64,000 bases of DNA from Scilla litardierei (lineage: Eukaryota; Streptophyta; Magnoliopsida; Asparagales; Asparagaceae). The DNA lies in assembly GCA_030789695.1 (NCBI GenBank), contig JAULAV010002416.1:609212-673211 (forward strand), given 5' to 3'. The notes beneath the pieces were generated by a model. That model saw nothing but the letters and a program-made list of their open reading frames with translations, had not been told where the DNA came from and ran no database searches. The position numbers and the translations under genes were made by a program. Positions 1,885-61,345 of the stretch are shown piece after piece. Positions within the stretch are counted from its first letter, which is position 1. Each line of letters opens with the position of its first letter.

Positions 1885-2290
1885 GGAACTAACCGACTAG
1901 ATTGAGATCTAGTCGGTCGGCAACTCTACTCAAACCGACTAGTTTCTTGGATTAATTTTACCTAAGTTACTGTATCTGTTTAGTCGGTCTAAGTTCATCT
2001 TTCGACCGACTAGTTGTCAAACTAGTCGGTTAAGTTTTGTACTCAGACCGACTAATTCCTAGTTCTCCTGTACAGCCGAGTTACTGTTCACTCTTAGTCG
2101 GTCTAAGAACGTTCATCGACCGACTAGATGCTAAACTAGTCGGTCAGTATTTGTTCATGGACCGACTAACTCTAAAATCCTATTTTCGTTCAGAAGTTAC
2201 TGTTTGCACTTAGTCGGTCTGCGTTGGTCGACCGACCGACTAGTTGCCAAACTAGTCGGTCAGTGGTTGCTCTTTGACCGACTAACCAGT
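1885..2290. repeat. Palindromic motif array ACTAGTCGGT/ACCGACTAGT in the U3 of LTR L
   Basis: About 14 copies of a 10-bp motif alternate in orientation. Three units of roughly 120-130 bp (about 1975-2060, 2095-2170, 2210-2290) share one plan: TTAGTCGGTC, a spacer of about 15 nt, GACCGACTAG, a loop of about 8 nt, CTAGTCGGTC, a spacer, then GACCGACTAA. Each unit therefore contains an inner hairpin and an outer inverted pair. An incomplete unit lies at 1885-1950. Every motif carries RCCGAC, the known core of the plant DRE/CRT element bound by DREB/CBF factors. The array ends about 45 bp before the TATA box. Confidence 0.9.
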
Positions 2291-2328
2291 GTTGAAACCC
2301 TAATTTCTGGGCAGCCGCCAGCTTAACC

Positions 2329-2337
2329 TATTTATAC
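2329..2337 (+). promoter_or_regulatory. TATA box of LTR L
   Basis: TATTTATAC lies about 45 bp downstream of the palindromic array and about 65 bp before a pyrimidine-rich leader. This is the expected place for the U3 promoter of a plant gypsy LTR. The transcription start itself cannot be seen. Confidence 0.6.
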
Positions 2338-4305
2338 CCAACCCAAACGATTTCTTCTTCCCCAACACGACCCAAAACCCTAAAATCTTCCCCCTTGAGC
2401 CCCCATCTTCCTCCAAGCTTCATTTCTTCATTCCAAGCCCCAAATCCATCATCCAAACCATCCATCCACTCTATCTACCTCTCATCTTCCCCAAAATCTC
2501 ACCAAATCCATCAAAATCCCCAAATCCCCCAAAACCCTAGTTTCCCCAAACTTCTCCAATCTTTTCCAGATCTGATCCTAGGGTTCCCCGGAGTGTTTCT
2601 TCCGCTTCCTCTCGGTAAGAAATAGATTCCTCTATGTTTTCATAGCTTATTGGTATTTTTATGAAACCCTAATATAATTTCATGTTGTTTGATGATAGTT
2701 CCCCCAAAACAGCGATTTCCCCGTAGTTTGGCATCCGTGTGACGAAGTGGTCGTCATCCCCGGTGCTAGGCAAGTGAAACTTGCCACTTAGGGTTTAGGC
2801 CATGTTTTAGGCCATTTGCTTGTTGTAGGCGTAAAAGAGGCTAGGCGACGAAATGATACTCGCCTAGGCGCAAATTGGGGAACTAGCTTGACAACGAAGC
2901 TAGTTCCGACATTTAGCATGTTGCACAATTACCATGTCATGTTTACTTTCCATTACTGTACGCAAATTAATTGTCATGTCATTGCATTCTTTAAGTATTT
3001 CTGTGATTGCTTAGCTTTGCTACAAATGCTTGTGTTCCTGGCTCGTGTTCCAGAAGCGGGCCATGTGTTGGTCGATAGCCAATGCCCGAATTGCATGTTT
3101 CCGGCTAGGTGCACCCCTACGCCAAATGTTTAAGAATGTGAGCTCATGTGCGGGGCAACCCCAGGCTCACTAGCTGAGCTCATTGTGCAGGGACCCTGGC
3201 TCCATTACGTGTGGGTATTGGGGGTAAGAGTTAAGCGACCATTCAACTGGGAGTCTGCCTGATCCGCAACTGCAGTTGTAAGGCGTAAACTCTGGGTTTG
3301 GGGTAGTTGTTAAGCGGCCACTCAGCGAATGGGAAACCATTCAGCTGTAAGGCGTAAACATCTATACAACAACGTGAATAATGAATTGATTGAGATTGAT
3401 AGTAGCTTGGCTACTCTTGTCTTGTCCTGATAATTGTTCCCTTGTACAAAATTGTCTTGACATGTCGTAAATTGTGCACTCATGTTATAACTGCCATGTC
3501 ATGCATACTATAACTGCTAGGTTGCTAGTTGCCTTACTTTCAGTTTCCTTGCCCAGGTCTTTTAGACTTGCTGACATGTGCCCCTTTACTCTTTTGGGTG
3601 ACACATGTTAGATCTCGAGCCTGAGTACCTTGTTGAGGACGAGGTGTTTGCTGTCGCCGAGCCCGAGCCCGTGTTTGGCGGGGTGTACGTGGACACTGGG
3701 GACCAGTCCTAGTGTCTTCGTAGCGTTTTACTTTTGTTTAGACAGTTGTTTTGTTAACGGTGCGTAGCACCCATACCTTGTTTCGTCGTTGTTGCTTTTG
3801 TTGGCCTTGTTCTGGGCCTTAGACTCTTTTCCTTTAGCCTGGTGGCTTTTCTGGATGTTGGACTTATTTTCTTGTTGGACAATTTATGAGGTGTGAGATT
3901 TTATTCCAGTCTCTCCTTGTGTTATTATTGTTATTCCGTTGTGGTTACAGGGACCTGCTTATGTATTTTTGACGCTTATCGGGTTTGGGGCTTCACAGCT
4001 CCACTCTCGTGCGGACCTTTTCACGTCTCGCCTCCATTTTAGGGAAGCGGGTCGTGACAATTAATCATGGCAATTGAATTTGTTTTCATAAATGGCATAT
4101 TAATGATTAATTACATGAAGGAAAAATAATTAATTCGGGCCAAAAAAAATTTTAGAATCCAATCAATGCATGATCATCCGATAAAATGATATGTGAATGA
4201 GTTTTAAATGATGAGAATTGGTGACCGATTCTTTTTCTCTCATATTTTTTTAAAAAAAATCCTAAGGTCTCATACACTCTCCCCAATTAAAGATGGACAT
4301 TGTCC

Positions 4306-4858
4306 TCAATGTCGAAAAGGGTACGTGTTTATTCAAGAGCAAACATCCTAAAAGGCATATAAAATTCTACGCTAATGGAAAGAACACACTGTGGTCAAAT
4401 GGCGGATCACGGATCTTTAATGATGGAGGAAGTCGTTCTAGTTGTTCCTTGTGCTCCTCGTCAAGCCTTCTCCCTCCACAAGCTAAATTGGACCCCAGCA
4501 ACACAACTCCAAGCACCTCCATAAATTGTTTACCTATGTCCTACAAGAGATGAGTTATGTCAGTCCAATTTAGTCTAAAATTCTTCGCAATAAACATATT
4601 CCAAATATAGTCATCAAAGTAAGTAAAATAAAGTAAGGCATGTTGATGACTACTCCCTGAAATATTTTCACTACTCTCGGTATGATGCTCAGCCATGGGG
4701 GAGAGGAATGAGTGATTTTGGTAAAAAAAAACTGGTGAAGAGAATGGTTCGGGCTCCATATTAATGTTCTCTAAATTCATGTCCCTAGATGTCTCCTCCT
4801 CATGTTCATCCAAAATTGCTAGCTCGTTCTCTCCTTCTTTGCACACGCTTCCAGCCAT
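4306..4858 (-). pseudogene. Fragment of a small conserved ORF of the J/I family
   Basis: The minus-strand frame opens at 4858 and reads 105 codons to a TAG at 4541-4543. The same frame then continues for about 60 codons to a stop before the ACATTGAGGACAATGT block. Its C-terminal part matches the ORF at 8638-9093 of element I: an aromatic-acidic segment with WN.FI, a stretch of about 30 residues, then KEQLERLP and IRDPPF (KEQLEQLP and IVDPPF in I). The sequence after the stop codon (TAGAATTTTATGC-like, then AATAAACA) is also shared. I do not recognise the protein. Sharing between two elements suggests that it once was selected. Confidence 0.55.
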
Positions 4859-5658: not shown

Positions 5659-6269
5659 AAACTTGACTCGTCTTAAAAGATGTGAGCGCTACTCCCAAGT
5701 GTAAGAGATCAAACATGTAATAATCATGGTGAGTCCAGGTATCGTATCCACGGGAAAACTGACCTGCAAAATTACGAATTTCAGTTTATAAAGAGTACTA
5801 AAACGATATTAAACAACCACCTTTCAGAGATATAAGTAATGGTTTCGAAGGTTTTAAATACAAAAACAAAATCCTACAATAATTACGGTGAATTCGGTAC
5901 TAGAGTACTAATGTGGAGATATGTGTCGGTTGTGGTTTCGTTAGGGCATTTGCAATTGATGATTATTAATATCTTTTCTATAGCTCAACGTTTCATCTGG
6001 CTAGGGCACAAGAACGTCGAAAGGTATGGCGATAAAGCGCCCAAGATTTGGAAACTACTCACTAATCATGGCATTATATGCAACAAAACAAATTTCAGCC
6101 ATTGAAATGAAAATCAAGCAATAGATAACCAGAGCAAACGGTATTATAAGCGCAATATTAAAGTATTAGAAAGATCAAAGAACTTGCAAAGTGAGTTTAA
6201 TTGAAAGCAGCCAAAAACCCCTAAAAACAGCTTAAGAAAATGGGATTCGTTTTCTGGGAAACCTAGGGC

Positions 6270-6278
6270 TATTTATAC
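6270..6278 (-). promoter_or_regulatory. TATA box of the J/I LTR
   Basis: The minus strand reads GTATAAATA followed by GCCC. It lies about 55 bp downstream of the CCGATCGG array in the direction of transcription. In the other LTR the matching place (about 11330-11340) reads CTATTAATAAA and looks decayed. Confidence 0.6.
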
Positions 6279-6330
6279 ATTTTGGCAAGATGCCAATGAA
6301 TATTCCCACTAAAAGACAAAAATAAATGCT

Positions 6331-6650
6331 CAGCCGATCGGTTGAAATATCAACGGATCGGGTGAGGCAGCGGTTGGACTTGGTCTTCAGCTTCTGAAAA
6401 TCCTCACCCGATCGCTGAACCGACCGGATGAGCCGTTGGGTTCTTGAGCTGGGGAAGCATCTGCTACAGATGACCCGATCGGTTGACAAGTCAATCGATC
6501 GGGTGGAGTTGGCACACAAAAACAGAGAGTTGTGTCGGATCCACCCGATCGCTGAACCGATCAGGTGGGGTCGCTCCTTCTTCGGGTCTGATACGTCTGC
6601 ACGAACCGATCGGGTGGATCTATCTACCCAATCGGTTGAGAGCTGATACA
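6331..6650. repeat. Palindromic motif array ACCCGATCGGTTGA in LTR 5664-6879
   Basis: At least nine copies of a motif built on CCGATCGG occur in both orientations, often as pairs, for example CCGATCGGTTGA, a few bases, then a TCAACGGATCGGGT-type partner. Variants such as CCGATCGCTGAACCG also occur. The array lies just upstream of the TATA box when read on the minus strand, the same position as the arrays in L, H and K. Confidence 0.85.
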
Positions 6651-8637
6651 TGATATGTCCTTAAAGACTGGCTCCCAGTGGCTCGTGCGACACCTCCCGT
6701 TGCTCCGGGGACTCGTGATGTTAGCGTTGTATGTCCCCTGCGCCAGCAATCCTGCAAAAACACAAAACCACAACGAAAGTGAAAAGGAACTAAAAATCAC
6801 AAAAAGACGGACTCAAAATAACGAAAAACGAAGGGAAATCACGGAGAAGATGTGCGTGAATATATAAAATATAAATGCACTTAAAAATCCCCAAGCTGAA
6901 CTCTTCCTCGTCCTCGAGGAAGACAAACGAGAATCGGAGCTCGGAGGAGAAAATAGAAAGGAAGAAACAGAAAAAGAAAAAGGAAATCCTAGATTACCCG
7001 TCAGAGCCAACGAAAACAAACACACCACACTAAGCAAGCATGCGATAAGCATCGCACTAAACTCATGAATATGAGTCCCTACGAGTGTCGTGGGTCCACG
7101 CGGTGAAGCGCAAGTGAGTGAGGTCGTGAGCTAGCAGACGGTGTAACTATCTAAATTGTGCAATCAAGCTCCATATACACATATCTATGGAATGACCCAA
7201 ATACCGAATCAATTCGAATAAGCGGTGAATAATTGTTCAAGCATGCATGAGAATAGTGAAAGAATAGAAACATATCACATGTCAGGGACTCTACCGCTAG
7301 AAACTAGGGAATCACCGCACGATTGTGTAGATGATTGCTAGAAAGCTCCTATGCCAAATGTGTTCGAAAACGAAGGGGGTTGAGTAGGTGTGGAGGAGAG
7401 CACTCGGTGCAAATTCTCGCATTCCCTTTATTCACGGCGGATAGGAGTAATATTCACAACAGGAATTTTTTTTGGGTTTTGGATATTTGGATATTTTTTG
7501 GATTTTGGCTATACATGTTCTTTCTTTTCTCTCTTTTTTTCCTTCACTTTTTTTTTGGATTTTTGGATTTTGGCAAAATTGTGTACTCTCCCAAGTGGAA
7601 GAATACATGATGAGGGGATTTGCACCAAGTAAAACAAAAAAAATTCAAATTCTAAACACTTGGGCAAAAGGAAATTTTTTTTGCGAATCGGAGCATAAGC
7701 AAAATGGGTTATCCTAGTCCTATTGGTAGAGTCCCGACACATGCGAATTGAAGCGTAAATAAATAGATAATTCATGCATAAAGAAGCAGACAGTGGAGGC
7801 AAAATACCGCATATTTGAAATGAAGCATGATATTCTAGGGGTCATCCAAGGACAGGCATATAAAACAAAATCACAACGTAGAAGCACACCAACTAGCTAG
7901 TCACAACACACAACTCATACAAAAGCAAAGTGAACCCACGGAGCATAAAATGCAATAGGACTAGGCTTCCTAGGGTTAGTGAGAATGATTATTGTAGCTA
8001 AGCTACGTGTGTGTTGTTCCGTGGCAGTTCATCATGTGGGGTCATCTCTAGGAGAGGGAGAATAAAAGGATGGAAAGAAAGAAAAAAGAAAAACACGACG
8101 AAAAACGACGAAAAACGGTGAAAAAGACAAGACTGACGCACAAAGTGCGACTCCCCCAAGCTGAACGTTGCATTGCCCTCAATGTAATAGGAATACATGC
8201 GGGATGGCAACAAAAGATAGGAGGGAAGTACACACCGACAAATAAACGGGAAAAACATGAAAAACACACAAGAAGAGATATATAAAAATAAAGAAAATAA
8301 ATACCAAGATGAACTATATAAAAGACATACACATGAGCACAAACAAAACAAACACACATCAAACAAGTGACAACACGACAATCACAAAATATTGATTTCT
8401 CCCAAGCTGATTTCAATAATACCAAAAAAGGATATGATCATGGTAAATCAGAAAATTGGCTAGGGAAAAATCAAAAAAAGGGAAATCATGGTGCAGGAGC
8501 GGGAGGCTCCTCATCCTCCTTGGAAGAGAGTGGCACAGACAAAGAAAAGGAAAAATCATGAAAAACAAACAAAAAGATGTATCTCTCACTGTCGAGAGGA
8601 TTCATGTTTATTGAAAGCATAAAATTTTACGCTATTG

Positions 8638-10385: not shown

Positions 10386-11916
10386 TGACCACCCGCCCGT
10401 TTGGCACTCAAATCGGGATGGGGATACTAGAATTAAAATTTGTAACCGCAAGCACACAGTGTCGAGGTGTGGCTTGGGGTCGAACACAGGGAGGCATGTG
10501 TTGTGCTAGTGAGCAATTGGGATCCTGATCACCCGGTGGGTGAGCTAGCTTAATCACTTGATGGGTTGTCACAATAGAAAATTAATGCAAAAGGGTGTAA
10601 GATATAAAAAAGGCAACCTAGGACCTTGGCTTCCGTCCTATCATAAGTTCTCACTATTACGACCGACGGATAGGAATGTGATCAGATTCTAGGGTTTAGC
10701 AGTGAGACGTTGCCTCTAAAAGTGGTACCAAGCGTCCCATGGGCCTGATATTCCGGTCGATGCCCGGGATGATACGTTAGGTCTACCCAGGTTCGGACGG
10801 TGGACATTCCCATGTCCAGCACCGACCGACTCCGGGAGCACTAAGCTCGCAACGATTGCTCCTGACATTTCATCCAAGCCGTTCTCACGCGCGAGGAATC
10901 AATGTCTACGCTAGGGGTGTGAGCTGAGGCTAGGGGATCAAACTCCCGTTTTATTTCCCCTTGGCCTGACGGTCAAAGGCGGTCTTTCTCCCGCCAGAGA
11001 CAATAAAACACCCTGTGTAACCATCTAAATCCCTATATTCTATCGAATCCCTAATCCTATTGTCGTTCTAGGGAGAACCCACGAAGGGGCTTCCACCAAT
11101 GTCCCAGATCTGGAAACTACTCACTAATCATGGCATTACATGCAACAAAACAAATTTCAGCCATTGAAATGAAAATTAAGAAATAGATAACTAGAGCAAA
11201 CGGTATTATAAACACAATATTAAAGTATTAGAAAGATCAAAGAACTTACAAAGTGAGTTTAATTGAAAGCAGCCAAAACCACCATAAAACAGCTTAAGAA
11301 AATGGGATTCGTTTTCTAGGAAACCTAGGGCTATTAATAAATTTTGGCAAGATGCCAATGAATATTCCCACTAAAAGACAAAAATAAACGCTCACCCGAT
11401 CGGTTGAAACATCAACCGATTAGGTAAGGCATCAGTTGGACTTGGTCTTTATCTTCTGAAAATCCTCACCCGATCGCTGAACCGATCGGATCAGCCGTTG
11501 GGTTCTTGAGCTGGGGAAGCATCTGCTATAGGTGACCCGATCGGTTGAGGTGAAGTTGGCACACAAAAACATAGAGTTGTGTCGGATCCACCCAATCGCT
11601 GAACCGACAGGTGGGGTCGCTCCTTCTTCGGGTCTGATACGTCTGCACGAACCGATCGGGTGGATCTGTCCACCCGATCGGTTGGAAGCTGATACATGAT
11701 TTGTCCTTGAAGATTGCTCCCAGGGTCTCGTGTGACACCTCCCGTTGCTCTGGGGACTCGTGATGTTAGCGTTGTATGTCCTCTGCGCTAGCAATCCTGC
11801 AAAAACACAACGAAAGTGAAAAGGAACTAAAAATCACAAAAAGACGGACTCAAAATAGCGAAAAACGACGGGAAATCTCGGAGAAGACGTGTGTGAATAT
11901 ATAAAATATAAACGCA
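10386..11916 (-). repeat. 5' LTR of element I
   Basis: On the minus strand it starts TGCGTTTATATTTT (11916) and ends GGTGGTCA (10386), giving 1,531 bp. The U3 half matches LTR 5664-6879. The U5 half (10386 to about 11100) differs from it and contains a region where the plus strand reads like the tail of Tat-type LTRs (GGTCGAACACAGGGAGG). A second CCGATCGG array lies at about 11393-11690. The right flank (11917 onward) is copia RNase H sequence, so I inserted into element D2. Confidence 0.75.
11393..11690. repeat. Palindromic motif array CCGATCGG in LTR 10386-11916
   Basis: This is the counterpart of the array at 6331-6650. It has CACCCGATCGGTTGAAACATC, CACCCGATCGCTGAACCGATC and similar motifs in both orientations. 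One pair present in the left LTR (around 6478-6505) is shortened here, so copy number differs between the two LTRs. Confidence 0.85.
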
Positions 11917-11923
11917 CGTCAGT

Positions 11924-14545: not shown

Positions 14546-14640
14546 CTAATGTTTTAATCGTGTAATTCTTTTATTTATTTGAATTACTTCAGCAAGTAAT
14601 TATTATTATTTTAATTACAGTTTATCTAGTTTTAATTATT

Positions 14641-14990
14641 ATGCTCTACTCTATACGAGACTGGTTTTCATGCCCTACTCTATAAAGATTAGCCTTAATA
14701 GTGTGCTCTACTCTATAAGAGATTGGCTTTCATGCCCTACTCTATAGAGATTAGCCTTAATATTGTGCTCTACTCTATAAGAGATTGGCTTTCATGCCTT
14801 ACTCTATAGAGATTAGCATTAATATTGTTCTCTACTCTATATGAGATTGGCTATCATGCCATACTCTATAGAGATTATCCTTAATATTCTGCTCTACTCT
14901 ATATGAGATTGGCTTTATGGCTCTACTCTATAGAGATTAGCGTTATAATTATATTCTACCTTATATGATATTACTTTTAATGTATAATAG
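14641..14990 (+). repeat. 62-bp tandem repeat in the C1 leader
   Basis: Five clear units and a decayed sixth share TGCTCTACTCTATAAGAGAT...CCTACTCTATAGAGATTAGC. Each unit is made of two half units of about 31 bp, both containing CTACTCTATA(A/G)GAGATT, itself partly palindromic. The array lies about 600 bp before gag. The stretch 14990-15580 is AT-rich with no feature. Confidence 0.9.
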
Positions 14991-15579
14991 GTAGAGATGT
15001 ATGTTTTTGAATTCAAAGATCATATTTCGCTTTGACTACAGTCAACTAATCTGTAGGTAAAGGCGATGTTCTATGGTCTTTGCAATTACCATACTTACAA
15101 CTATGTGATTATATGAGTAATAACATAAAGTTGCTTGCATAAGCATTCTCGGTTTTTCACTTTAATTAGCAAAACAGTATTGTCACCCAAGTGACCTCTG
15201 CTGTGAAACTTTTTAATTTATGAATAACTAAGTTAATTTTATTTGCATTATTTCATGCGAGCAACATGTTGGCCCAAAGGAAAATTGTTGTTTGGCAGAA
15301 ATTAATGTGTACATGTGATATTGAATATTGATAACTATTAGATGTACCTTGTAAATACTTAACTGGACCAAAGAAAGCTAGAGTATTTGGATGTACAATG
15401 TTATCTTTCTCGATTACTACAACAAGTTGATAGCTAGCGAGTCGAATTTTAGTCCAAAGAATATATTTGATGTTGCATTAATCAACTTGCAGATGTGTTG
15501 TTATTATTCATTTAGCTAATCACTAATTTTTAATAATTAATTGTGAGCTAACTTACATTTTTTGTTCTCTATACAGCTA

Positions 15580-19209: not shown

Positions 19210-19519
19210 CTCCGTGATCACTCCATATTTTACACCCTTTTTCTGCATGTTTACATGCCACTGTGATCGCTCATATCGCGTTTTCCACGATTATTTGACA
19301 ATATTGCGATTCTTTTCAATATTTCTTTTTTTTGTCGTATTTCAGGAGATATGGAGCGATTTGGAGTGATTTTGAGATCAAGAGGATTTGCACCCACTCC
19401 GGAGTGTCACCCACAGCTCTTTTAAGGGCCATTCAGCGATGGACGATGAGTGGAAGAAGAAGGAACTTTGTAGGAGCGACGAGAAGGAGAAACGAAGAAG
19501 ATTGGGCATCTACAGCATG

Positions 19520-19886
19520 TCACTCGGCCGAGTGAAGCACTCGCTCGGCAGAGCAAAGAAGCTCGCTTGGCCGACCAGACCGGACACGCACAACAGAAGA
19601 ATATCAGCGTGCTCTCGGCCGAGTGACGATAGACCACTCGGCCGAGTATGGAGATCCCCTCGCCCGAGTGGCACGGGAAAATCCATCCAAAAAAGAGGCC
19701 GACTTACTGGAAATTTACAGTCGACCTGAGAGTTCCGACTCGGCCGAGCATGGAATGCCCCTTGGCCGAATGAGTAAAGCCACTCGGCCAGTCATCTCCG
19801 AAGACAGACCCCCGAAAACCCCCGACTTACTGGAAATCTACAGGGTTTGTCACTCGACCGAGTGAAATTTGTCACTCGGCCGAGTG
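19520..19886. repeat. Palindromic motif array CACTCGGCCGAGTG in the H 5' LTR
   Basis: About ten copies or near copies of a perfect 14-bp palindrome or its halves, for example at 19522-19535, about 19642, 19738 and 19872-19885. Variants such as CTCGACCGAG, TTGGCCGAAT and CTCGCCCGAG differ by one or two bases, mostly transitions. The array lies about 85 bp upstream of the TATA box. Confidence 0.9.
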
Positions 19887-19970
19887 AGCCGTTCCGCCTG
19901 CTGCGTAAGTTGCGATTTCTGGGCTGCGCAGGGGCATTTTGGTCACGATTTTCTGGGCGATTTTGAAGGG

Positions 19971-19978
19971 TATTTAAA
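19971..19978 (+). promoter_or_regulatory. TATA box of the H 5' LTR
   Basis: TATTTAAA within GAAGGGTATTTAAACCC, followed by a leader with CCTAGTTAAGGGGGAC. The copy in the 3' LTR lies at 47671-47678. Confidence 0.65.
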
Positions 19979-21034
19979 CCCAGTTTTTGCCCTAGTTAAG
20001 GGGGACTTTTTAGAGCTTTTTGGCAGCCTTTTTGAGAGCTTTTTAGATCATTAGATTTAGCTTTTCTTTTGGGGATTAAAAGGCTACTCGTGTTGGATGC
20101 TATTGGATTCTCATTGGTTTGTCTATTCTCTTACCAAAACCCCTATTTTTATTAACAATTTCTCTATTGCAATGAATTGTGTTGATTTTATTATTGATTT
20201 TCCTAAGTATTGCATGATGATTAGTGAGTAGTGCCTTCGTCTTAAGGCGTAGGGATGAACCCTATAGACCATATTTTTAAATTGTGATGAATTGGTGAAA
20301 TTCTTGCTAGAATTGATTAGGGTTAGGTTGGGATTAATTAATTACAGATAGATATGGATTCATATCGATTGAGATTTGCAAGAGATTGGGTCCCAATTGA
20401 TAGGAAGCCCTAGAAATTCGATTTAGATTTACGATTGGACTTCTTTAGAATTGGTTTGCAAGAGATTGGACCAAAGCTAGGATTTTTAATCGTGTTTCTA
20501 TACCAATATCCGTTTGCAAGAGATTGGACGGGTAGGAACTATCTCAACCTAGGTTGTAGCTCAAGTTTGCACGAGAGTGGGCTCGAGATAAGATTGAACG
20601 ATGATGTCGTTCTTCACGCTAGCGGCTTAGGGTAGGGTTTGCAAGAGATTGGGATCTATCCTAGGTTTGCTATAGACCGGCAATAGCACGAGAGCGTGAG
20701 CTTGGTTCTACATTTAGTTGCGACTAGTTCACCTAAAATTCAAGTCTAGCAATGATGAAACCTATGAACCACAACGATGAGATACGGTCCATAGCGGGGA
20801 TTCCCTATCCCTAGGCGCTTTGTTTTATTGATATCTCTATCGACATTTGAACGATTGTGACTAATTTACCCCAAATTATTCTCGACCCTCTTGATAGCTA
20901 GGTGATTGGAAGAAGACACTGTCATTTGTTCCTCCCTGAGTTCGATACCCGCTCGCCGCTACACCGTGCGCTTGCGGTAAGACTACGAGTCGCTTGCCCC
21001 AGGTGTGTGTACTCCCGGGGCCCGACCAAGTTTT

Positions 21035-21051: not shown

Positions 21052-21174
21052 AGGCGACAGTGTGTTATTATCTTCTTTTACTTAGTATCTTCTTTTGTTT
21101 TATTATTTTTATCGTTATACTCTTTTTTCATGCTAACAATTCCTTTGAAACTCTGTTTCTCTTTGCATGAACAC

Positions 21175-21894
21175 GAGTCGCTTGCCCCGGGTGTGTGTAC
21201 TCCCAGGGCCCGACCAAGTTTTTGGCGCCGTTGTCGGGGATTTCGGCCGAGTGACAAACCCTGTAGATTTCCAGTAAGTCGGGGGTTTTCGGGAGTCTGT
21301 CTTCAGAGATGACTCGACCGAGTGGCTTTACTCACTCGGCCGAGGGGCATTCCATGCTCGGCCGAGTCGGAACTCTCAAGTCGACTGTAGATTTCCAGTA
21401 AGTCGGCCTCTTTTTTGGACGGATTTTCCGATGCCACTCGGGTGAGGGGATCTCCATACTCGGCCGAGTGGTCTATCGTCACTCGGCCGAGGGCACACTG
21501 ATATTCTTCTGATATGCGTGTCCGGTCTGGTCGACCGAGCGAGCTTCTTTGCTCGGTCGAGGGAGTGCTTCACTCGGCCGAGTGACATGCTGTAGATGCA
21601 CAATCTTCTTTGTTTCTCCTCCTCGTCGCTCCTACGAAGTTCCTTCTTCTTCCACTCGTCTTCCATCACTGAATGGCCCTCAAAAGAGCTGTGGGTGACA
21701 CTCCGGAGTGGGTGCAAATCCTCTTGATCTCAAAATCACTCCAAATCGCTCCATATCTCCTGAAATACGACAAAAACAAGAAATAGTGAAAAGCATCGCA
21801 ATATTGTCGAATAATCGTGGAAAACGCGATATGAGCGATCAAAGTGGCATGCAAACATGCAGAAAAAGGGTGTAAAATATGGAGTGATCAAAAT
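21175..21894. repeat. Rearranged LTR insert in the H leader, with inverted LTR head
   Basis: The segment has two parts. 21175-21240 repeats the LTR tail and primer site in direct orientation. 21241-21890 is the reverse complement of LTR positions about 19215-19868, ending exactly at the LTR terminus (GGAGTGATCA). The word CTTTGCATGAACAC is present on both sides (21161-21174 and 21895-21908), so the insert sits at the start codon of gag. The inverted part carries its own set of CTCGGCCGAG palindromes. Confidence 0.85.
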
Positions 21895-33458: not shown

Positions 33459-33507
<49 letters not shown>

Positions 33508-33623
33508 GTGGGAATGACAAAAATGGATATGGGTACGGTGACAGAAGCATCGGACTACGGATACGGGAAGAAATACACAGGAGAAAAATACAGATAACGT
33601 AATGATGAGAACCGGTCGTTACA
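30968..33623 (-). repeat. Left LTR of G (3' LTR on the coding strand)
   Basis: 2,656 bp, TGTAACGCCCCGCTTCCC...CCGGTCGTTACA on the plus strand. It contains an AAT/ATT simple repeat (about 33463-33507) that is partly self-complementary and a GC-rich segment near 32480-32880. Open frames inside are not conserved as genes. Confidence 0.93.
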
Positions 33624-33661
33624 TCCTACCCACCTTAAAGAAAATTCTGCCCTCGAAATTC

Positions 33662-37065: not shown

Positions 37066-37151
37066 CTAAGGGAATCATGCAACTATATCAAACAAGGAAA
37101 CTAACTAATCAAACATAAATGCAGAAAAGGAAAGACTAGGTTAGGAGTTAC
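37066..37151 (-). other. Candidate intron 1 of G (86 nt, between gag and protease)
   Basis: On the minus strand GTAACTCCTAACC begins at 37151 and ...GATTCCCTTAG ends at 37066. The inside is T-rich with stops in the gag frame and an 86-nt length that is not a multiple of three. Removing it puts gag and protease in one frame without loss of residues around the junction. The GT and AG ends and the T-rich composition fit a plant intron. Confidence 0.6.
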
Positions 37152-38286: not shown

Positions 38287-38417
38287 CCTGCAAAAGAGAA
38301 AGAAAGCCCGAGTTAATCTCGTGTACACGATTACTCCGGATGTTTGGCTAAAGAAGGTGTTCTCATTGTTTTGAATTTCGCAGTTGCAATGGACCTGCAT
38401 GGGTCACCAATAAAACC

Positions 38418-41101: not shown

Positions 41102-41106
41102 TTAAG

Positions 41107-42041: not shown

Positions 42042-43341
42042 ATCTCCCCCTTTTGGTGATGACAAACCCATAAAAGATTTGAGCAATAGATATGAGTGTG
42101 TGAAGTGTGTTGAAGGGTGTAATGCAATATGATGTATGAATGAGTCATTCAAGCATTGCAAAGCATGCACGACAAATAGTAAATATAAAAGCATGCTCCC
42201 CCTTCTCTCATGCTCCCCCTTCAACATATATTCAAGTACGTTACATGCTCCCCCTTCAACAAATAATTCCCGACATCAAATCTGCAAAATCTTTTCTTTC
42301 TCCCCCTTTGTAATCACCAAAAGTGGATTAATGAAGTCACACGAATATTCCATGCAAAACTAAACCATTATTAAAAGTGGCGTGCAATTTGCATGAGTTT
42401 TCCAAAGAATAGACCATTCAAGCTCATAGAATTTCATAACAAGACTTCTCCACCTTTGTGTAAGTGTAGTGATATAGACAATAAAGTACAAGAGGAGATT
42501 CAATTTCAGAAAATCAACTAACTCAATCCACATTTTTCAAGTTTCATGAATATCGTGAGGATTGAATTTTCCCACCTCATCAAGGATGAGTTCAAGTTAC
42601 CGAACCCCAAAACATGGCCTAAAAGGACTTTTAAATGTGGGGTGGAATTGCTTGACGAGTTATATACACCAACACTAATGATTACCCATTTAGCATAAGT
42701 TGGATACTCGTGGGTTGTGTATTAGCTATGAAGTGTATCCATTTTCATACGGAGCAAATATAGTTTTTTTTTTCAATTCTTTTGGGCTCAATTTTAATTC
42801 ATGGCTAAACACTTCGTATCCCTTAGAAAATTCAGAAATTAATCATTCCTACATTCACTTTCCATTATTCTTCAAAAGAATCTCCAAAAGCACTAAAAAG
42901 TCAATTATCGTGAAAGTGCAAATGTAGGTGTAGAAGTCAAATTCGAAATTTATGAGACATGTCATGGCTACTAAAAAGAGAACAACATGTTCATGTAGCT
43001 ACAACAATAATGAATTAACTTCTACAAGGAATAGACTTGAACATTCATACAATACCACATAAGATAAATCATAAAGGGTATTCTTTTAAGCACATTTTTT
43101 TTATTTTTGGTTTTTCAATTTTTTTTGTTTTTTCAGAAATAAAAACATTAAAAATCATGCATGCAAGCACACAAAACAAAATAAAAACAAGCACACAAAA
43201 CAATCTATGAAGGTATGCAATGGAATGCAAAGAGGGATAAAAATTATACCTTCACGTCGCTATTTGACGAAGGAGCTAAAAGAATGAGACATTGAAAAAT
43301 TTGCTCCTTGACAAATCTCCACCTTACCTACATGAAAGGTG
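42042..43341 (-). other. 3' untranslated region of F with repeated purine tracts
   Basis: On the minus strand the LTR is preceded by AAAAGGGGGAGA. Further GGGGGAGC or GGGGGAGA tracts lie near 42200, 42220, 42250 and 42302. The rest is AT-rich. There is no trace of protease, RT or integrase. Confidence 0.8.
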
Positions 43342-45198
43342 TTAAGTGTGACCTTGGAATCCAACAAGGTCCACTAGTATAGCCATTATTGTTTTAGGAA
43401 CCCACACTTGTTTAAACTTGATATTTCTGTTCCTAAATTTACAATAATATGAAGTGTGGCCTACACTATCACAAGTAAAGCACTTTGCATATTTGTTTTT
43501 TGCAATAGAGGGTACATTGTGGAATTTCTTGAATTTTTGCTTTTCAACGTTTTTCAGACCAAAACCAAGTCCTCTTCTATAATTGCCATATAATTGATTC
43601 TCTAAAATAGTGTCCAACGATTGTTTTCCCATAGAGAATTTCTTAATGGCCACTTCAAGATGAGAGACTTTGATTTTTAATTGTTTATTTTCTTCCACAA
43701 GCATCGTGCATTTACTAACGAAAGCCAACTTGTTTTCTTTTTCCTTCTTTTCATATTCAATTGTTTTCTTTTTAAGATCGTTATCTAGCATGCAAAATTT
43801 ATCCTTAAGCTCTCTTATTTCATATTCTTTTTCAGCTTCGAGCTTCATTAAATCTTGTTTAAGCATGCTATTTTGTTTTAATAATGAGGAACAAGAAATA
43901 CAAGGAGCAGTTTCATCAAAGCTAGCTTTTTCCTTCTTCATGATTTCAATAGTAGACTTACATGCATTAAGTTCAATTTTAAGCTTTTCATTCTCTTTAA
44001 ACACCTTATCATCTCTAACTTGCATGTCATAGTTCTGATTTTGGAGACATTCAATAGTGAACTCATGATCTACTATTTGATTTTTCATTTCTTCACAAAT
44101 TTTAAGAAGTTCAGCTTTGCTACCTGACGGTGTCACGTCTTGGATCCCCATCAAAGCCATGCAAGAATGGGCTTCATGTTCCTCCTCGCTTTCAGCTTCG
44201 CTATCCATGTCCCATGTTAATACCTTCGCTTTTTCTTTTACTTTAGCGAGCTGAGCAGTTTCATTTGGGCAATCCTTCATCAGATGTCCTCTTCCCTTGC
44301 ATTTATAACATTGCATTCTATCAGTAGATTTCTGATCATTAAATTGCTTGGAAGAATTATTAAAGTTAGAACGATTAAACCTGGGTGCCATTTTGTTTCT
44401 CTCATGCTTGGTCTTGATGAACTTTCTGAAGTTTCTCACCATTAGCGTTATGTCGTCGTCGTCATCCTCTTCTTCGCTAGCTTGCAAAGCAAGGGGCTTT
44501 ATGGCTTTCTCTTTCTCCTCAGGTTTCTCTCTTGCTTCAACATTTTGCAGTTCCAACTCATGGGACATTAAATTACAAATAAGGTCCTCCACCTTCAATT
44601 GAGACAATACCTTTGCTTCCTGGATGGCAGTGAACTTTGGTCTGAAAGAGCTTGGCAATGCTCTTAGGAACTTCCTCACTTGATCGAGGCTATCATATGG
44701 CTTTCCAAGCGAGCTAGACTTGTAGACTATGTCGGTGAACCTTGCATACATCTCTGATATGCTCTCTGATGGTAGCATGCGAAATCCCTCGAACTCTGCA
44801 CTCAAAAGAGACAGTCTAGACTCCTTTACCTGTGACGTTCCCTCGTGTGTCACCTCCAAAGTATGCCATATTTCCTGCGCAGTTAAACAATGTGAGATTC
44901 TATTATATTCAGATTTATCAAGTGCACAAATGAGAGCATTCATAGCTTTAGCATTTAAAGAATAAGATTTCCCATCATTCGCATCCAATTTATCATTTGG
45001 TTTATCAATCTCAACACCATCTACTTTAATAACAGGCAGCTTATAACCTTTTTCAATTATTTGCCAAGCTTTATAATCAACAGAAATGAGGAAAATTTTC
45101 ATTCGATTTTTCCAATATGCATAATCACCTCCATTAAATCTAGGAGGACGGGAAACAGACTGACCCTTTGCAAAAGCACTATCCATATGGTTATTCAT
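43342..45198 (-). CDS. Gag protein of F, intact frame
   Basis: Gag would form the particle that packages the element's RNA. The frame is open from ATG 45198 (MNNHMDSAF) to 43342, 618 codons. It is also open upstream through the primer site, but the first ATG is at 45198. Residues about 1-235 are a UBN2/DUF4219-type gag (FNGGDYAYWKNRMKIFL, LTAQEIWHTLEVTHEG, LRALPSSFRPK). An acidic linker follows, then a CCHC knuckle CYKCKGRGHLMKDC near residue 297. A long lysine and glutamate rich region (about 360-560) looks like a coiled coil. A second knuckle CFTCDSVGHTSYYC lies near residue 580. It is the only long undamaged ORF in the window apart from short domains. Confidence 0.9.
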   Translation of the reverse strand: MNNHMDSAFAKGQSVSRPPRFNGGDYAYWKNRMKIFLISVDYKAWQIIEKGYKLPVIKVDGVEIDKPNDKLDANDGKSYSLNAKAMNALICALDKSEYNRISHCLTAQEIWHTLEVTHEGTSQVKESRLSLLSAEFEGFRMLPSESISEMYARFTDIVYKSSSLGKPYDSLDQVRKFLRALPSSFRPKFTAIQEAKVLSQLKVEDLICNLMSHELELQNVEAREKPEEKEKAIKPLALQASEEEDDDDDITLMVRNFRKFIKTKHERNKMAPRFNRSNFNNSSKQFNDQKSTDRMQCYKCKGRGHLMKDCPNETAQLAKVKEKAKVLTWDMDSEAESEEEHEAHSCMALMGIQDVTPSGSKAELLKICEEMKNQIVDHEFTIECLQNQNYDMQVRDDKVFKENEKLKIELNACKSTIEIMKKEKASFDETAPCISCSSLLKQNSMLKQDLMKLEAEKEYEIRELKDKFCMLDNDLKKKTIEYEKKEKENKLAFVSKCTMLVEENKQLKIKVSHLEVAIKKFSMGKQSLDTILENQLYGNYRRGLGFGLKNVEKQKFKKFHNVPSIAKNKYAKCFTCDSVGHTSYYCKFRNRNIKFKQVWVPKTIMAILVDLVGFQGHT

Positions 45199-45227
45199 GG
45201 TTAATCCTAGGCTAGATCCTAAAACCC

Positions 45228-45239
45228 GCTCTGATACCA
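45228..45239 (-). other. Primer binding site of F
   Basis: The minus strand reads TGGTATCAGAGC, the exact complement of the initiator tRNA-Met 3' end, two bases after the LTR. Confidence 0.95.
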
Positions 45240-45241
45240 CT

Positions 45242-47089
45242 TGTTGGATCTGGATTTGGATCCTAGCCTAGAGGGGGTGAATAGGCTTATAAAAATAATT
45301 CGTGCAACCCACGAATAAGCACACGCAGTTATAGCAGCAACAGGGTAAATAAAAAGCAGACACAGAGTACACTGTAGATTTACCCTGGTTCGGTCGTCCC
45401 TTCGACATACTCCAGCCCCCAAAGCAGATACTAGTATTGAATAGCGCAATAGGTACAAAACCACAAGTTAGAGCACGCTCAGAGCACCCTCTACGTCTCT
45501 ACACTCGCCAGGCTCTCAGTACCCCACACACAGTGTTTCCTCTCACTACCAATCCTAGTAATGCTTTCTACCAACTAGTCCCAAACTAGCTGGGTCCCAC
45601 TTGTCTAGCCCCAACCAGACAAGTCTCAAAATAGTCACAAAATAAATGGTAAAGTTTTCCCCTACGAGGATCTAACACAACAACTACACAAAATAATAAT
45701 AAATAGAGTTTAGGAATCTCAGTTTGTGTAGCGGCGATGTCCTCGTCAATCAGCGCGGGTCAGATCAATCTGACAAGTAGTAGTCTCTGATGTCCCCTCA
45801 ATAGTTTGCCCCCGCTCTATGAAACTTGCACCCTCTGCGTGAGTCGAGATTTAATTCCTTTGCTTGCTGCTCTTTGATGAAGTGCTCTTTGATGAAGGCA
45901 CCAAAAATTCGGCTCTGTGTGCTTTTTGTTTTGGCCCTGCACAGCAAAAACAACCAGTGAGGAGAGAAACAATTAATGAAGCAAGGTTCGCCCTGGGGAA
46001 ATATGATTGGTATGGCAAAAAAAAATAATGTGCGGCCTCTTGATTTAAACAAAATTTTGGCTGCCTGAGGATTCTCTTCGGCCCCCTCTTTTTTTTGTGC
46101 GGCAGCTCCCCTGAGATTTCTTTTGTGCGGCTGCTTCAAGGTTGTGCAGCTTTTCCTTTTTGGTTCTCCTTTGATGGCCGGTGCTTTGAGATCAAGGGGA
46201 AAGAAATAAAAAATAATAATAATAATGTTTAAGTGCCCTCCCGAGATTTAATGCGCCATTCAATGTGCTCCTCTGCAAATAAATTCGGCCTTCTCAACAA
46301 GTTTGTGTTTGAATGAAAAAAAAGACAACTCGGCCCCTCCTCTGTGCGTGAGCGGCTCTTGATTTAATGCAGCTGCCTCTTTCATGTGGGCTTCCTTTGA
46401 ATGAGCCGAACACAATTTTTGCTGCTCAGATTTTTGGTGGCCGCCGTACCCTGCAAAACAAAAGAGTCGCTTCTTGTCCTACAAAAAAACAAGGCTCTTA
46501 TTGAATGAAAGAGAGAGCAATAAAAGGTGCCAATTTTGATAATTTTGCATGCCCCTCTTGCAAGTTGACGTGGTGCCTCTCAATTGCCAAGGCAAATTAA
46601 TTTGGCCCTCCTCCTGGCTTTGAAGAAAGTGACATGCAGCTTGGAGACAATAGGAGCCGAATTTCTCCTTGGTTTCTATATGTCGCGCGCCTATGCAATT
46701 GATGAAGTGGGTTTTTATAGGAGGGAAGTAAGGGTTGTTTAGAGGGATATGATCAAATAGAATCCCTAGAGTTAAGGAATGGAAAATTTGTATTGGGATT
46801 GAATTGAAGTTTGAAAAGGAAATGGGTAGCAACAAATTTCCCTAATTGATTTGACCAAATCTCAAATAGATTTCATCTCCCATTATATTGACCAAGTCAA
46901 ACTTCTTTGAGCACACACTTCCTTTCTCTCCTAGGATGCTATATGAATAGCGATTTCTCCAACACGTTGACTTAGTCAACTCCTCAAGATTTACCCCTTT
47001 GCCAATCCTGAAATACACGTAACACACACGTTAAATAGTTCGCACGTTTGTCATCATCAAACCAAGATCCTAGATCATTGCTTCCAACA
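45242..47089 (-). repeat. Right LTR of F (5' LTR on the coding strand)
   Basis: TGTTGGATCTGGATTTGG...GATCATTGCTTCCAACA, 1,848 bp. On the minus strand it ends next to the primer site of F. The minus-strand TATA box is near 46710-46720. Confidence 0.93.
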
Positions 47090-47094
47090 ACCCA

Positions 47095-48728
47095 CAGCTC
47101 TTTTGAGGGCCATTCAGCGATGGAAGACGAGTGGAAGAAGAAGGAACTTCGTAGGAGCGACGAGGAGGAGAAACGAAGAAGATTGGGCATCTACAGCATG
47201 TCACTCGGCCGAGTGAAGCACTCACTCGGTCGAGCAAAGAAGCTCGCTCGGCCGACCAGACCGGACACACACAACAGAAGAATATCAGCGTGCCCTCGGC
47301 CGAGTGACGGTAGACCACTCGGCGGAGTGATGATAGACCACTCGGCCGAGTATGGAGATCCCCTCGCCCGAGTGGCACGGGAAAATCCATCCAAAAAAGA
47401 GGCCGACTTACTGGAAATCTACAGTCGACCTGAGAGTTCCAACTCGGCCGAGCATGGAATGCCCCTCGGCCGAGTGAGTAAAGCCACTCGGCCGAGTCAT
47501 CTCCGAAGACAGACCCCCGAAACCCCCGACTTACTGGAAATCTACAGGGTTTGTCACTCGGCTGAGTGACATTTGTCACTCGGCCGAGCCGTTCCGCCTG
47601 CTGCGTAAGTTGCGATTTCTGGGCTGCGCAGGGGCATTTTGGTCATGATTTTCTGGTCGATTTTGAAGGGTATTTAAACCCAGTTTTTGCCCTAGTTAAG
47701 GGGGACTTTTTAGAGCTTTTTGGCAGCCTTTTTGAGAGCTTTTTAGATCATTAGATTTAGCTTTTCTTTTGGGGATTAAAAGGCTACTCGTGTTGGATGC
47801 TATTGGATTCTCATTGGTTTGTTTATTCTCTTACCAAAAACCCTATTTTTATTAACAATTTCTCTATTGCAATGAATTGTGTTGATTTTATTATTGATTT
47901 TCCTAAGTATTGCATGATGATTAGTGAGTAGTGCCTTCGTCTTAGGGTGTAGGGATGAACCCTATAGACCCTATTTATAAATTGTGATGAATTGGTGAAA
48001 TTCTTGCTAGAATTGATTAGGGTTAGGTTGGGATTGATTAATTACGGATAGCTAAGGATTCATATCGATTAGGATTTGCAAGAGATTGGGTCCCAATTGA
48101 TAGGAAGCCCTAGAAATTCGATTTAGATTTACGATTGGACTTCTTTAGAATTGGTTTGCAAGAGATTGGACCAAAGCTAGGATTTTTAATCGTGTTTCTA
48201 TACCAATATCCGTTTGCAAGAGATTGGACGGGTAGGAACTATCTCAACCTAGGTCGTAGCTCGAGTTTGCATGAGAGTGGGCTCGAGATAAGATTGAATG
48301 ATGATGTCGTTCTTCACGCTAGCGGCTTAGGGTAGGGTTTGCAAGAGATTGGGCTCTACCCTAGGTTTGCTATAGACTGGCAATAGCACGAGAGCGTGAG
48401 CTTGGTTCTACATTTAGTTGCGACTAGTTCACCTAAAATTCAAGTCTAGCAATGATGAAACCTATGAATCACAACGATGAGATACGGTCCGTAGCGGGGA
48501 TTCCCTATCCATAGGCGCTTTATTTTATTGATATTTCTATCGACATTTGAACGATTGTGACTATTTTACCCCAAATTATTCTCGACCCTCTTGATAGCTA
48601 GGTGATTGGAAGAAGACACTGTTATTTGTTCCTCCCTGAGTTCGATACCCGCTCGCCGCTATATCATGCACTTGCGGTAAGACTACAAGTCGCTTGCCCC
48701 GGGTGTGTGTACTCCCGGGACCCGACCA
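47095..48728 (+). repeat. 3' LTR of H, second part
   Basis: It continues from CAGCTCTTTTGAGGGCC to CGGGACCCGACCA, matching 5' LTR positions from about 19414. It contains the third CACTCGGCCGAGTG array (about 47200-47590). In that array one motif unit (GGCGGAGTGATGATAGACCA, about 47323-47342) is present in addition to those of the 5' LTR. The TATA box is at 47671-47678. Confidence 0.95.
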
Positions 48729-59356: not shown

Positions 59357-59603
59357 CTGGGGGGGTTTCTGTCCCCCGCCCCCCAGACGGGGGGGCGCTT
59401 TTCCGTCGCCAGCCCCCCAGAGGGGGGCTCTGTACTCGCCCCCCCCCCCCCCCCCCCCCCCCGAAGGGGGGGCTCTTCCGTCGCCCCCCCCCCCCCCCCC
59501 GAAGGGGGGGGCTCTTCCGTCGTCGGCCCCCGGAGGGGGGCAATGTCGTTTCGGACCCCCCCCCCCCCAACAGCGGAGGAGGGGCTCCGACATCTGGTGA
59601 ACA

Positions 59604-59634
<31 letters not shown>

Positions 59635-59999
59635 GCCCTAGAAGGGGGCTTTCGCGAGTCAAAACCCCCCCTCCCCCCCCCCCCCCCCCCCCGCTCGACG
59701 GGGGGCTCCGACGATCAAACCACCACCCCCCCCCCCCCCGTGCGACGGGGGGGCTCCGGCGTCAACCCCCCCCCCCGAAGGGGGCTTCCGCGAGTCAAAA
59801 CCCCCCCCGCTCGACGGGGGGCTCCGGCGATCAAACCCCCCCCCCCTCGACGGGGGGCGCCGGCGTCAAACCCCCCCCCCCCCCCCGAAGGGGGCTTCCG
59901 CGAGTCAAACCCCCCCCCCCCTCCCCCCCCCCCCCCCCCCCCCCCCCCGCTCGACGGGGGGCTCCGGCGATCACCCCCCCCCCCCCCCCTCGACGGGGG
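59340..59999. repeat. C-tract/G-tract higher-order repeat
   Basis: Units of 35-55 bp consist of a run of 8-26 C, a short GAA or CTCGAC, a run of 5-8 G, and a unique tail. From 59636 three tails alternate as a-b-c: CTTCCGCGAGTCAAA (59645, 59783, 59893), CTCCGACGATCAAA or CTCCGGCGATCA (59706, 59820, 59957), and GCTCCGGCGTCAA or GCGCCGGCGTCAAA (59750, 59856). Before 59600 the units have CTCTTCCGTCG tails. Each C-run can pair with the next G-run. Long homopolymers are prone to sequencing error, so run lengths are uncertain. Confidence 0.8.
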
Positions 60000-60745
60000 T
60001 GTAATGCCCTGCTAAGCTACTGCACAAGTACTAGAGGGGGGTGAATAGTACTTTAAAATAATTAAGAGGATAATTCCTAATTATCTTGCAAACTCTACCA
60101 ATAATGCGGAAATGCGGAAATGTAAATATTAGACAATAAAGACAAACAATCGCAAACAAGCAATTTAACGGGTTTGGATCCACCCAAGTCTCCCCGACTT
60201 GTTCCCGGTGATCCTACGTCCCAAACACCCGGATCCCCCCCCCCCCCCCCCCCCGGATACTTGAGTTAGAAACCCTAACTCAAGATTTCCACTATGAAAT
60301 ACTTGTGAAAAACCTTCACAAGTCAAATCATACACAAATGAAATTGTGACTCCCACAACCCGGGATCACAAACAAACTCTCACAACCGAGAGTGAAACAC
60401 TTACAATATCGAAAGTAAATGAAATAGAAATGCTTACCATAAAATACCTATGCCTTGAGTAAACTTACAAATTAGGGCAAAGATGATTTTGGGGAAGATG
60501 AAGAGGCACCAAACCCTAGCTCCAAGATGTAGATCAGCGATGGAGAGCTATGAGGTTGTTGGTGACCTAGAATCAAGCACTTGGCTTGGAAGGCTCACAA
60601 TCAATGAATCTCTCTTTTGAAATAAGAGTGAGAAGAGATTCAAGATTGGAAATGAATGAGCTTTGAATGAGAGTAAATGCTTTCTCTTTGATCTCTAAAC
60701 TTCTCTTAAAATCAGCCTTGAGTGCAATGAATGCAGCACACCAAG

Positions 60746-60754
60746 TATTTATAG
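60746..60754 (-). promoter_or_regulatory. TATA box of the K LTR
   Basis: The minus strand reads CTATAAATA followed by CTTGG, about 65 bp downstream of the palindromic array in the direction of transcription. Confidence 0.6.
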
Positions 60755-60819
60755 GTTAGAGGAAAAAGAGAGAGAAACCTGTTTCAATTAAAGCTCCAAC
60801 GGCTCTATTCTGAACCAAA

Positions 60820-61345
60820 CTAGTCGGTCAAAGAACAACCACTGACCGACTAGTTCATCAACTAGTCGGTCGGTCAATCAACATGAACCGACTAAGAGGT
60901 GAACAGTGAATAGGTCGAAGTTCAGACTAACAGAACTAGTCGGTCAAAGAACACTTGCCAACCGACTAGTTTCACAACTAGTCGGTCGGTGAGTGAACTT
61001 AGACCGACTAAGAGATAAAACAAATAGTCTGACAACAAATTGAATTAGTCGGTCCAAGAACAAATGTTGACCTACTAGTTCATCAACTAGTCGGTCGCCA
61101 AATGTACATAGACCGACTAACGATAAACAGTAGCTCAGGCTCAAAAATGGAAGTTCAACTAGTCGGTCCAAAAAGGATTCCTAACCGACTAGCTTCACAA
61201 CTAGTCGGTTGGTGAACCTTCTTTGACCGACTAACTGTAAACAGTAACTGAGCTAGAAATGAATGAGGCAAACTAGTCGGTCCAAGAAGCATTGTCGACC
61301 GACTAGATCACCATCTAGTCGGTTGGTTCTTCTTCTTAAACCAAC
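60820..61345. repeat. Palindromic motif array ACTAGTCGGT/ACCGACTAGT in the K LTR
   Basis: Five units of about 105-120 bp, each with four motifs in alternating orientation, the same plan as in LTR L. Beyond the array the two regions remain alike: GCGCGAAGCTTCGGGAA at about 61372-61388 is the reverse complement of the word near 1832-1848 in L. One unit has CCTACTAG for CCGACTAG. The match includes array and flank although L is gypsy and K appears to be copia. Confidence 0.9.

Follow-up and report, generated by a model that had tools for sequence, protein, structure and literature searches.

Why do several LTR retrotransposons in one stretch of the Scilla litardierei genome carry dense arrays of short motifs at the same place in their promoters, and what could read them? 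The window (the whole stretch analysed, 64,000 nt) harbors four LTR families with such arrays, L, I, H and K. Each array has 8-20 sites, which are CCGA/TCGG-containing palindromes or inverted half-sites and lie in U3, shortly 5' of the TATA box. An unbiased scan for 8-mer families in both orientations over 319 overlapping 400-bp segments, with 300 dinucleotide shuffles as null, gave at least 8 sites in 15 of the 319 segments, 14 of them inside the L, K, H or I arrays; the highest number in any shuffle was 7. The arrays are indeed where the earlier note had placed them and are well above chance, except for the 5' copy of I, whose 6-7 sites fall within the shuffle null. The remaining LTRs in the window, among them those of a nested Sirevirus-like element and of a Ty3 element with an RT, have no array above this null. 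The 15th high-scoring segment, 14601-15000, is a separate tandem repeat outside the arrays. CpG enrichment extends beyond the arrays: in L and K it is just as high in the U3 flanks.

L is the 3' LTR of a Ty3 element of the Tekay/Del type (1597-4058, + strand), which begins after the PPT AAGGTGGGTAGGA with TGTAACGAC; the window's RT-bearing Ty3 element has this PPT/LTR junction too, and the U3 att sequences of Del/Tekay and L, TGTAACACCC and TGTAACGACT, are alike at 7 of 10 positions. The junction of K is of the Sirevirus type (GGGGAGAA-TGTTGGA). Like Sireviruses, K has multiple PPTs upstream of its LTR (61751, 61824, 61954 and 62038, within 61751-62050, - strand) as well as an inverted repeat around the last PPT and the polyC integrase signal CACCCCCCTCTAG, both read by eye. 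The superfamily was read in a genome relative of each element: an L-type element encodes a PF00078 reverse transcriptase together with RNase H, that is, Ty3, and a K-type element encodes RVT_2, the copia reverse transcriptase.

Despite this difference, the arrays of L and K are homologous. The L array (1868-2284, + strand) consists of 16 half-sites in 4 quartets of TAGTCGGTC with spacers of 14/10/14 bp, the weakest half-site having 2 mismatches; the K array (60821-61347, - strand) consists of 20 half-sites in 5 quartets with the same spacers. Homology includes about 95 bp of adjoining flank (within 1703-1867, + strand, in L and 61348-61523, - strand, in K), which align with a local score of 65 versus a maximum of 33 in 500 shuffles. 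In contrast, the LTR starts of L and K are not homologous, and neither are the sequences 3' of the array. Because L-type elements have a Ty3 and K-type elements a copia reverse transcriptase, the module has crossed superfamilies. A tandem unit about 115 bp long underlies both arrays. Across the 9 quartets in the window the motifs are 90-97% alike and the spacers mismatch at 44%, but spacer length changed in 0 of 27 cases. The conserved core is YTAGTCGGTC. L and K thus share one motif set, which rules out four independent arrays: of the four different motif arrays described before, three motif sets stand. Convergent use, as had been proposed, does not apply to L and K, whose module is common by descent, but may hold between the three sets.

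The other two sets belong to H and I, which look Athila/Tat-like (Ty3), I being placed in Ty3 by its junction. The 5' LTR of H (19215-21028, + strand) is followed by an Asp-type PBS at 21035 and contains the array of CACTCGGCCGAGTG sites at 19521-19886 (+ strand). H carries a gag (PF03732), an inverted U3 copy in its leader (21243-21890, - strand, with an array at 21240-21584) and a second array (24995-25334, + strand), which lies 5' of an ORF in env position (25851-27656, + strand) of the ATHILA ORF-1 family (PF03078, E 2.2e-11) and is followed by TATATA at 25345. The array of the 3' LTR is at 47202-47590 (+ strand), in an LTR split by a nested insertion (29985-47089). I has two LTR copies on the - strand. 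One extends from 6880 to 6041 and, by inference, further in the direction of a degenerate Asp-type PBS at about 5650 (5660-6880), with CCGATCGG palindromes at 6330-6640 (- strand); the second (11103-11917) has its array at 11392-11686 (- strand).

All three sets occupy a similar promoter position. The arrays start about 271-295 bp (L), 306 bp (H), about 237 bp (I) and 404-427 bp (K) after the PPT/LTR junction. From the array end to the TATA-like box there are 45 bp in L (box 2329-2334, + strand), 68 bp in K (60748-60753, - strand), 84 and 81 bp in H and 54 bp in I (box 6277). This agrees with the earlier claim of arrays ending some 45-85 bp 5' of TATA, apart from the I 5' copy, which has no match to the TATA patterns used; at the internal H array the distance is 11 bp. 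Clustering at one promoter position, another claim of that note, is also seen for L/K-type arrays elsewhere in the genome and for H and I within the window: a TATA-like box lies 44-48 or 67 bp downstream of every one of 15 distinct L/K-type arrays (392-638 bp long; the set includes 13 genome arrays from about 7 elements).

A spacing of 20-23 bp between the centres of adjacent sites, equal to two helical turns, predominates in all three motif sets. Thirty L/K loci were retrieved from the genome by searching for the inner palindrome. Every one of their 61 distinct convergent spacers measures 14 bp; the 63 distinct divergent gaps divide into 27 of 10 bp and 36 linkers of 34-51 bp. For H, 7 of 10 gaps of the window array are 20-23 bp long (0.97 expected), and long gaps of 48, 54, 59, 70, 80 and 83 bp fall outside the register. 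Among the genome matches listed, the 63 distinct H pairs comprise 43 at 21-23 bp, 19 at 42-44 bp and one at 38 bp, in a search that permitted 14-44 bp and therefore had 44 bp as its upper limit. The 54 distinct I pairs (one type) among the matches listed are 20 bp (36) or 22 bp (18) apart, where 11-41 bp was permitted; in the window I array the 20-23 bp spacing is not significant (p 0.07 and 0.21), and gaps of 12-13 bp are also present. The matches listed, about the first 100 of each search, were all on C1, and since genome copies are related by descent, these counts are not independent events.

Such site pairs are abundant in the 3.68 Gb genome, with 631,408 for L/K (reversed control 174), 39,115 for H (reversed control 1) and about 20,000 for one type of I pair (reversed controls 14-19). 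An array at the expected distance follows 15,497 Ty3-type and 3,298 copia-type LTR starts (control 0 in each case). Three 10-kb stretches scanned lacked the L/K array; in L035, two H-like sites with a distance of 20 bp lie close to the end. Of two pattern scans of viral contigs, one turned up three stretches, each with a single pair that we attribute to chance, and the other none; prokaryote contigs gave no match.

What, then, are the arrays for? We lean towards the view that they are enhancers made of phased sites for dimeric host proteins and portable between element lineages, a reading that draws on motif arrangement and distribution. The predicted sites for dimeric host transcription factors, at intervals of two turns, would all face the same side of the helix, so that the factors could bind together. 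The arrays would act on the genomic promoter and, in H, on a second promoter as well, with the second array 5' of the env-position ORF. Such a working module would have been taken over from one element lineage by another, with template switching between co-packaged RNAs as the probable route.

A structural role fits as well, as the RNA of all five arrays tested folds much more stably than that of shuffled sequences (z -6.5 to -14.9). The arrays would then be RNA or DNA hairpins, acting as structured U3 RNA, as hotspots of host small-RNA silencing or in reverse transcription; palindromes of maize Sireviruses are described as hotspots of small-RNA mapping in the parts of the reports consulted (PMC5311732, PMC10760457). 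However, each H or I site is a short palindrome in itself, and in L/K outer-spacer pairing within quartets barely exceeds that between quartets (6.67 versus 6.24 of 14, p 0.22), which gives no sign of selection for pairing; likewise, covariation within L/K quartets was not detected (p 0.22 and 0.35), both at the low power of 9 quartets. We regard hairpins as rather unlikely.

Short-motif arrays that vary between families are also the targets of VANC proteins (PMC5735166, seen in part), and it is unlikely that a comparable element protein, for example the product of the env-position ORF, binds the arrays and strips silencing marks. In favor of this, the H array recurs 5' of the ATHILA ORF, and K has an ORF of PF20167 in the same position (62692-63813, - strand, E 3.9e-16), which comes within 190 bp of the window edge, its upstream side lying outside. 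VANC targets are, as here, short family-specific motifs in non-coding DNA, but they belong to VANDAL transposons, not LTR elements, their binding protein is known and element-encoded, and the motifs given in the sections consulted (YAGTATTAY, AGTTGTCC and AGTTGTAC) differ by eye from ours (PMC5735166, PMC10398659). Against it, the H and K ORFs have no recognisable relationship in ORF comparisons, their predicted structures are unusable (mean pLDDT 38 and 36), and one L/K module serves two superfamilies. Searches for relatives of the two proteins gave 0 matches among about 8,000 candidates each, in a database suspected to be poor in plants. Protection of L/K motif CpGs from deamination looked strong before context matching (1/128 versus 52/489 deaminated) but was gone at matched context (1/118 versus 2/57, p 0.25), and H and I motif CpGs showed no protection.

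RCCGAC is the DRE/CRT core, and the earlier note had seen it in L and K. It does occur inside the L/K motif, where the intact half-site includes ACCGAC, but the H and I motifs have a different core and carry GCCGAG and CCGATC, and the conserved L/K core is longer. Stress promoters read by DREB/ERF proteins are quite improbable. A functionless mutational by-product, in which unequal exchange and quasi-palindrome repair keep the motifs alike, would suit the tandem unit underlying the arrays but is very improbable, since the spacers diverge, yet spacer length, motif and TATA distance are fixed.

The closest known counterpart of the arrays is the palindromic CGG-CCG repeated motif of Sireviruses. 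As far as the consulted parts of Bousios et al. 2010 (PMC2829016) go, it was reported as Sirevirus-specific, with at least 8 CpG-rich palindromic copies that bear a CGG/CCG signature and precede TATA within the LTR's upper half, extra copies 5' of the ENV gene and no common binding factor identified. The copy number here is the same, and so is the start 200-400 bp after the junction before TATA, with K slightly beyond this range and the I 5' copy without a TATA match. The core CGGCCG fits H, whereas I has CCG-AT-CGG and L/K have separated inverted half-sites; extra copies before an env-position ORF are found in H, the element in which this region was covered. Confinement to Sireviruses does not hold, as arrays occur here in Ty3 elements too: L, H and, going by its junction, I. 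Del (Tekay) LTRs likewise have a variable CpG-rich stretch, a CpG island, in their 5' part, in the portions of Cruz et al. 2014 consulted (PMC4029996), where the eudicot Del elements studied are without one; unlike here, 'palindrom' and 'tandem repeat' have 0 matches in its main text. Arrays in Ty3 LTRs, the spacing rule and module exchange were not found in the literature as far as our searches covered it; the 20-23 bp register and the sharing of an array across superfamilies are described here.

One geometry over three motif sets, a cross-superfamily cassette and phased sites numbering in the hundreds of thousands within a single genome offer a direct handle on the putative binding factor, which could also tell whether such arrays work for the element, for the silencing machinery or for both. 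A further speculation, rather unlikely, is that a helically phased cassette passes between Ty3 and copia elements and is reinvented with other motifs under the 20-23 bp rule, and that a trans-acting reader may exist. Elements of different superfamilies would then be switched on together, possibly by a factor that one element encodes and others exploit.

The window (C2233:609212-673211, in a genome of 3.68 Gb) is made up of nested LTR retrotransposons, of a plant to judge by element types such as the ATHILA ORF and Sirevirus features, and the motif arrays that an earlier note had placed in four of its elements are all present there: in the Ty3-type LTR L (1868-2284, plus strand), the Sirevirus-type copia LTR K (60821-61347, minus strand) and the apparently Athila/Tat-like elements H (19521-19886, 24995-25334 and 47202-47590) and I (6330-6640 and 11392-11686, minus strand). 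An unbiased scan for 8-mers in both orientations returned eight or more sites in 15 of 319 scan windows, against a maximum of seven in 300 shuffles, and 14 of the 15 lie within arrays. The site count of the 5′ copy of I was not above this null. The sole scan window outside an array with at least eight sites falls on a tandem repeat at 14632-14972 that centres on CTCTATAG, present in either orientation. The element at 29988-47090 is Sirevirus-like, having a copia gag, an iMet PBS and several PPTs, and carries a nested Ty3 element in its 3′ LTR; the scan found no motif array above the null in it. Adjoining the K LTR end, at 59400-60000, long C-runs alternate with short GC-rich units, reflecting either low complexity or an assembly problem.

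The same note had treated L and K as separate, different arrays. Both are built from quartets of TAGTCGGTC half-sites whose direction alternates and whose spacers measure exactly 14, 10 and 14 bp (four quartets in L, five in K), and in a self-comparison the two regions, on opposite strands, align at 73.6% over 485 bp. From quartet to quartet the motifs agree in 90-97% of their letters and spacer letters mismatch pairwise at 44%; spacer length is constant in all quartets of the window, with linkers ranging from 35 to 42 bp. The flank of about 95 bp preceding the array is also homologous (score 65 versus a maximum of 33 in 500 shuffles), whereas the stretch after the array has only a 21-bp piece in common, barely over the null (37 versus 36). 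Judged by this homology, L and K arrays belong to one module. Taken together, the 216 half-sites of 54 distinct quartets, those of the window among them, give the core YTAGTCGGTC; its CpG is intact in 204 of the 216, with TG in six and CA in two.

Nine genome loci and both window copies, compared by flank, LTR start and the sequence behind the array, fall into three groups: L-like (L004, L006, L008, L016), K-like (L020, L024, L032) and a third LTR family bearing the array (L010, L028; the PPT junction is seen in L028). LTR start and after-array sequence match inside the L group and inside the K group; between groups, matches are confined to the array, its adjoining flank and one 27-bp piece. 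L shares its junction, TAAGGTGGGTAGGA-TGTAACGAC, with the RT-bearing Ty3 element of the window, and the K junction (GGTTTGTCATCACCAAAA, a G-rich PPT, TGTTGGA) recurs in a nested element with copia-type gag. Open frames of 533 codons lie both between L004 and L005 (99.1% identical; PF00078 and RNase H) and between L020 and L024 (98.9%; PF07727), each pair of which we infer to be the LTRs of one element. Genome-wide, ACCGACTAG follows at the expected distance 15,497 Ty3-type LTR starts ATGTAACGAC (7,792 + 7,705) and 3,298 copia-type starts AATGTTGGATATTGG (1,664 + 1,634), with none in reversed-pattern controls; genome pattern counts, here and below, are lower bounds. On sequence grounds, the module has passed between the Ty3 and copia superfamilies.

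A TATA-like box follows each of 15 distinct arrays of the L/K type, two of them in the window and 13 in about seven genome elements. It lies 44-48 bp downstream in the L-like and third groups and 67 bp in the K-like group, bearing out the position shortly before TATA that had been proposed. This distance is steady regardless of array length (392 to 638 bp), and in copies with a recognised LTR start, 293-295 or 426-427 bp of LTR precede the array. Identity within each of six LTR pairs is 96.9-99.1%, which makes the insertions fairly recent.

A site register of 20-23 bp prevails in all three motif sets. At 30 genome loci, retrieved with the inner palindrome as bait and 0-10 letters allowed midway, all 61 distinct convergent L/K pairs have a 14-bp spacer, and the 63 distinct divergent gaps divide into 27 of 10 bp and 36 linkers of 34-51 bp; measured from CpG to CpG, the quartet spacing is 22, 20 and 22 bp. 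The genome has at least 631,408 occurrences of the pair TAGTCGGTN{2,32}ACCGACTA (174 for the reversed control) and at least 157,002 of the inner pair (control 0), outer and inner pairs having one length each among the matches listed (about 100 per search, read by eye). For H there are at least 39,115 pairs (control 1); among the matches listed, with an upper distance limit of 44 bp, 43 of 63 distinct pairs are at 21-23 bp, 19 at 42-44 and one at 38, and the short gaps in two H relatives (72 and 78% identity) measure 21-23 bp. Pairs of I, of one type, number at least 20,253 (at least 20,275 on the opposite strand, for the most part at identical places; 14 and 19 in the controls), with 36 of 54 distinct listed pairs at 20 bp and 18 at 22 bp; the I arrays of the window also have gaps of 12-13 bp. 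The places listed stand at the head of the matches of each search, all on one contig (C1), and are kin by descent.

The H LTRs lie at 19215-21028 and, split, at 29786-29984 and 47090-48728 (self-comparison). The element has gag (PF03732), a PBS that we take to be Asp-type and, in env position, the ATHILA ORF-1 family PF03078; RT was not found in the five reading frames scanned. The array at 24995-25334 precedes the PF03078 ORF, and its first sites align with those of the LTR array at 80% over 60 bp at low stringency, for which a common origin is likely; the internal array may thus be a copy of the LTR array. In the leader, LTR end and PBS are repeated at 21173-21240, followed to 21890 by an inverted U3 copy (94.4% to 19215-19861); in H transcripts this copy could pair with the LTR as a long hairpin. 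Element I has an Asp-type PBS and the PPT context of H; four reading frames scanned gave no Pfam match, so its lineage rests on junction and PBS. Its LTR copies (6041-6880 and 11103-11917, self-comparison) have U3 and the start of R in common at 90.6% and differ in sequence beyond this as far as their PBSs, which hints for a second time that the LTRs are modular.

Arrays of like anatomy, including extra copies before ENV, are described in PMC2829016 for the repeated motif of Sireviruses, which is called Sirevirus-specific there; unlike that motif, the present arrays also occur in Ty3 elements. Maize Ty3 elements are generally without an obvious peak of such structure, according to PMC10760457, and monocot Del LTRs bear 5′ CpG islands that are absent from the eudicots studied (PMC4029996). 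The array anatomy in Ty3, one module across Ty3 and copia and the 20-23 bp register over three motifs appear to be new; we did not meet them in the literature searched, of which coverage was incomplete.

All five arrays tested fold strongly as RNA, with z-scores of −11.8 (L), −14.9 (K), −7.7 (H), −9.6 (internal H) and −6.5 (I), and spacer pairing inside quartets is not clearly above that between quartets (p = 0.22; with GU 0.35). The CpG observed/expected ratio of the arrays, 0.9-1.2, lies below that of the flanks of K (1.41) and L (1.89). Between LTR pairs, 1 of 128 L/K motif CpGs changed versus 52 of 489 elsewhere (p = 6e-5; 0/90 versus 52/490 without the sites used to find the loci). This apparent protection was lost at matched CCGA/TCGG context (1/118 versus 2/57, p = 0.25), and germ-line occupancy of the motifs is therefore without support; for H (6/35 versus 26/104) and I (2/18 versus 8/27) protection was not significant. 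The spacing, promoter position and sharing of the arrays are direct observations, and the most likely reading of their function, with binding, activation and factor all inferred, is that dimeric host factors would occupy neighbouring sites along a single face of the helix and switch on the LTR promoter, together with a second promoter in H.
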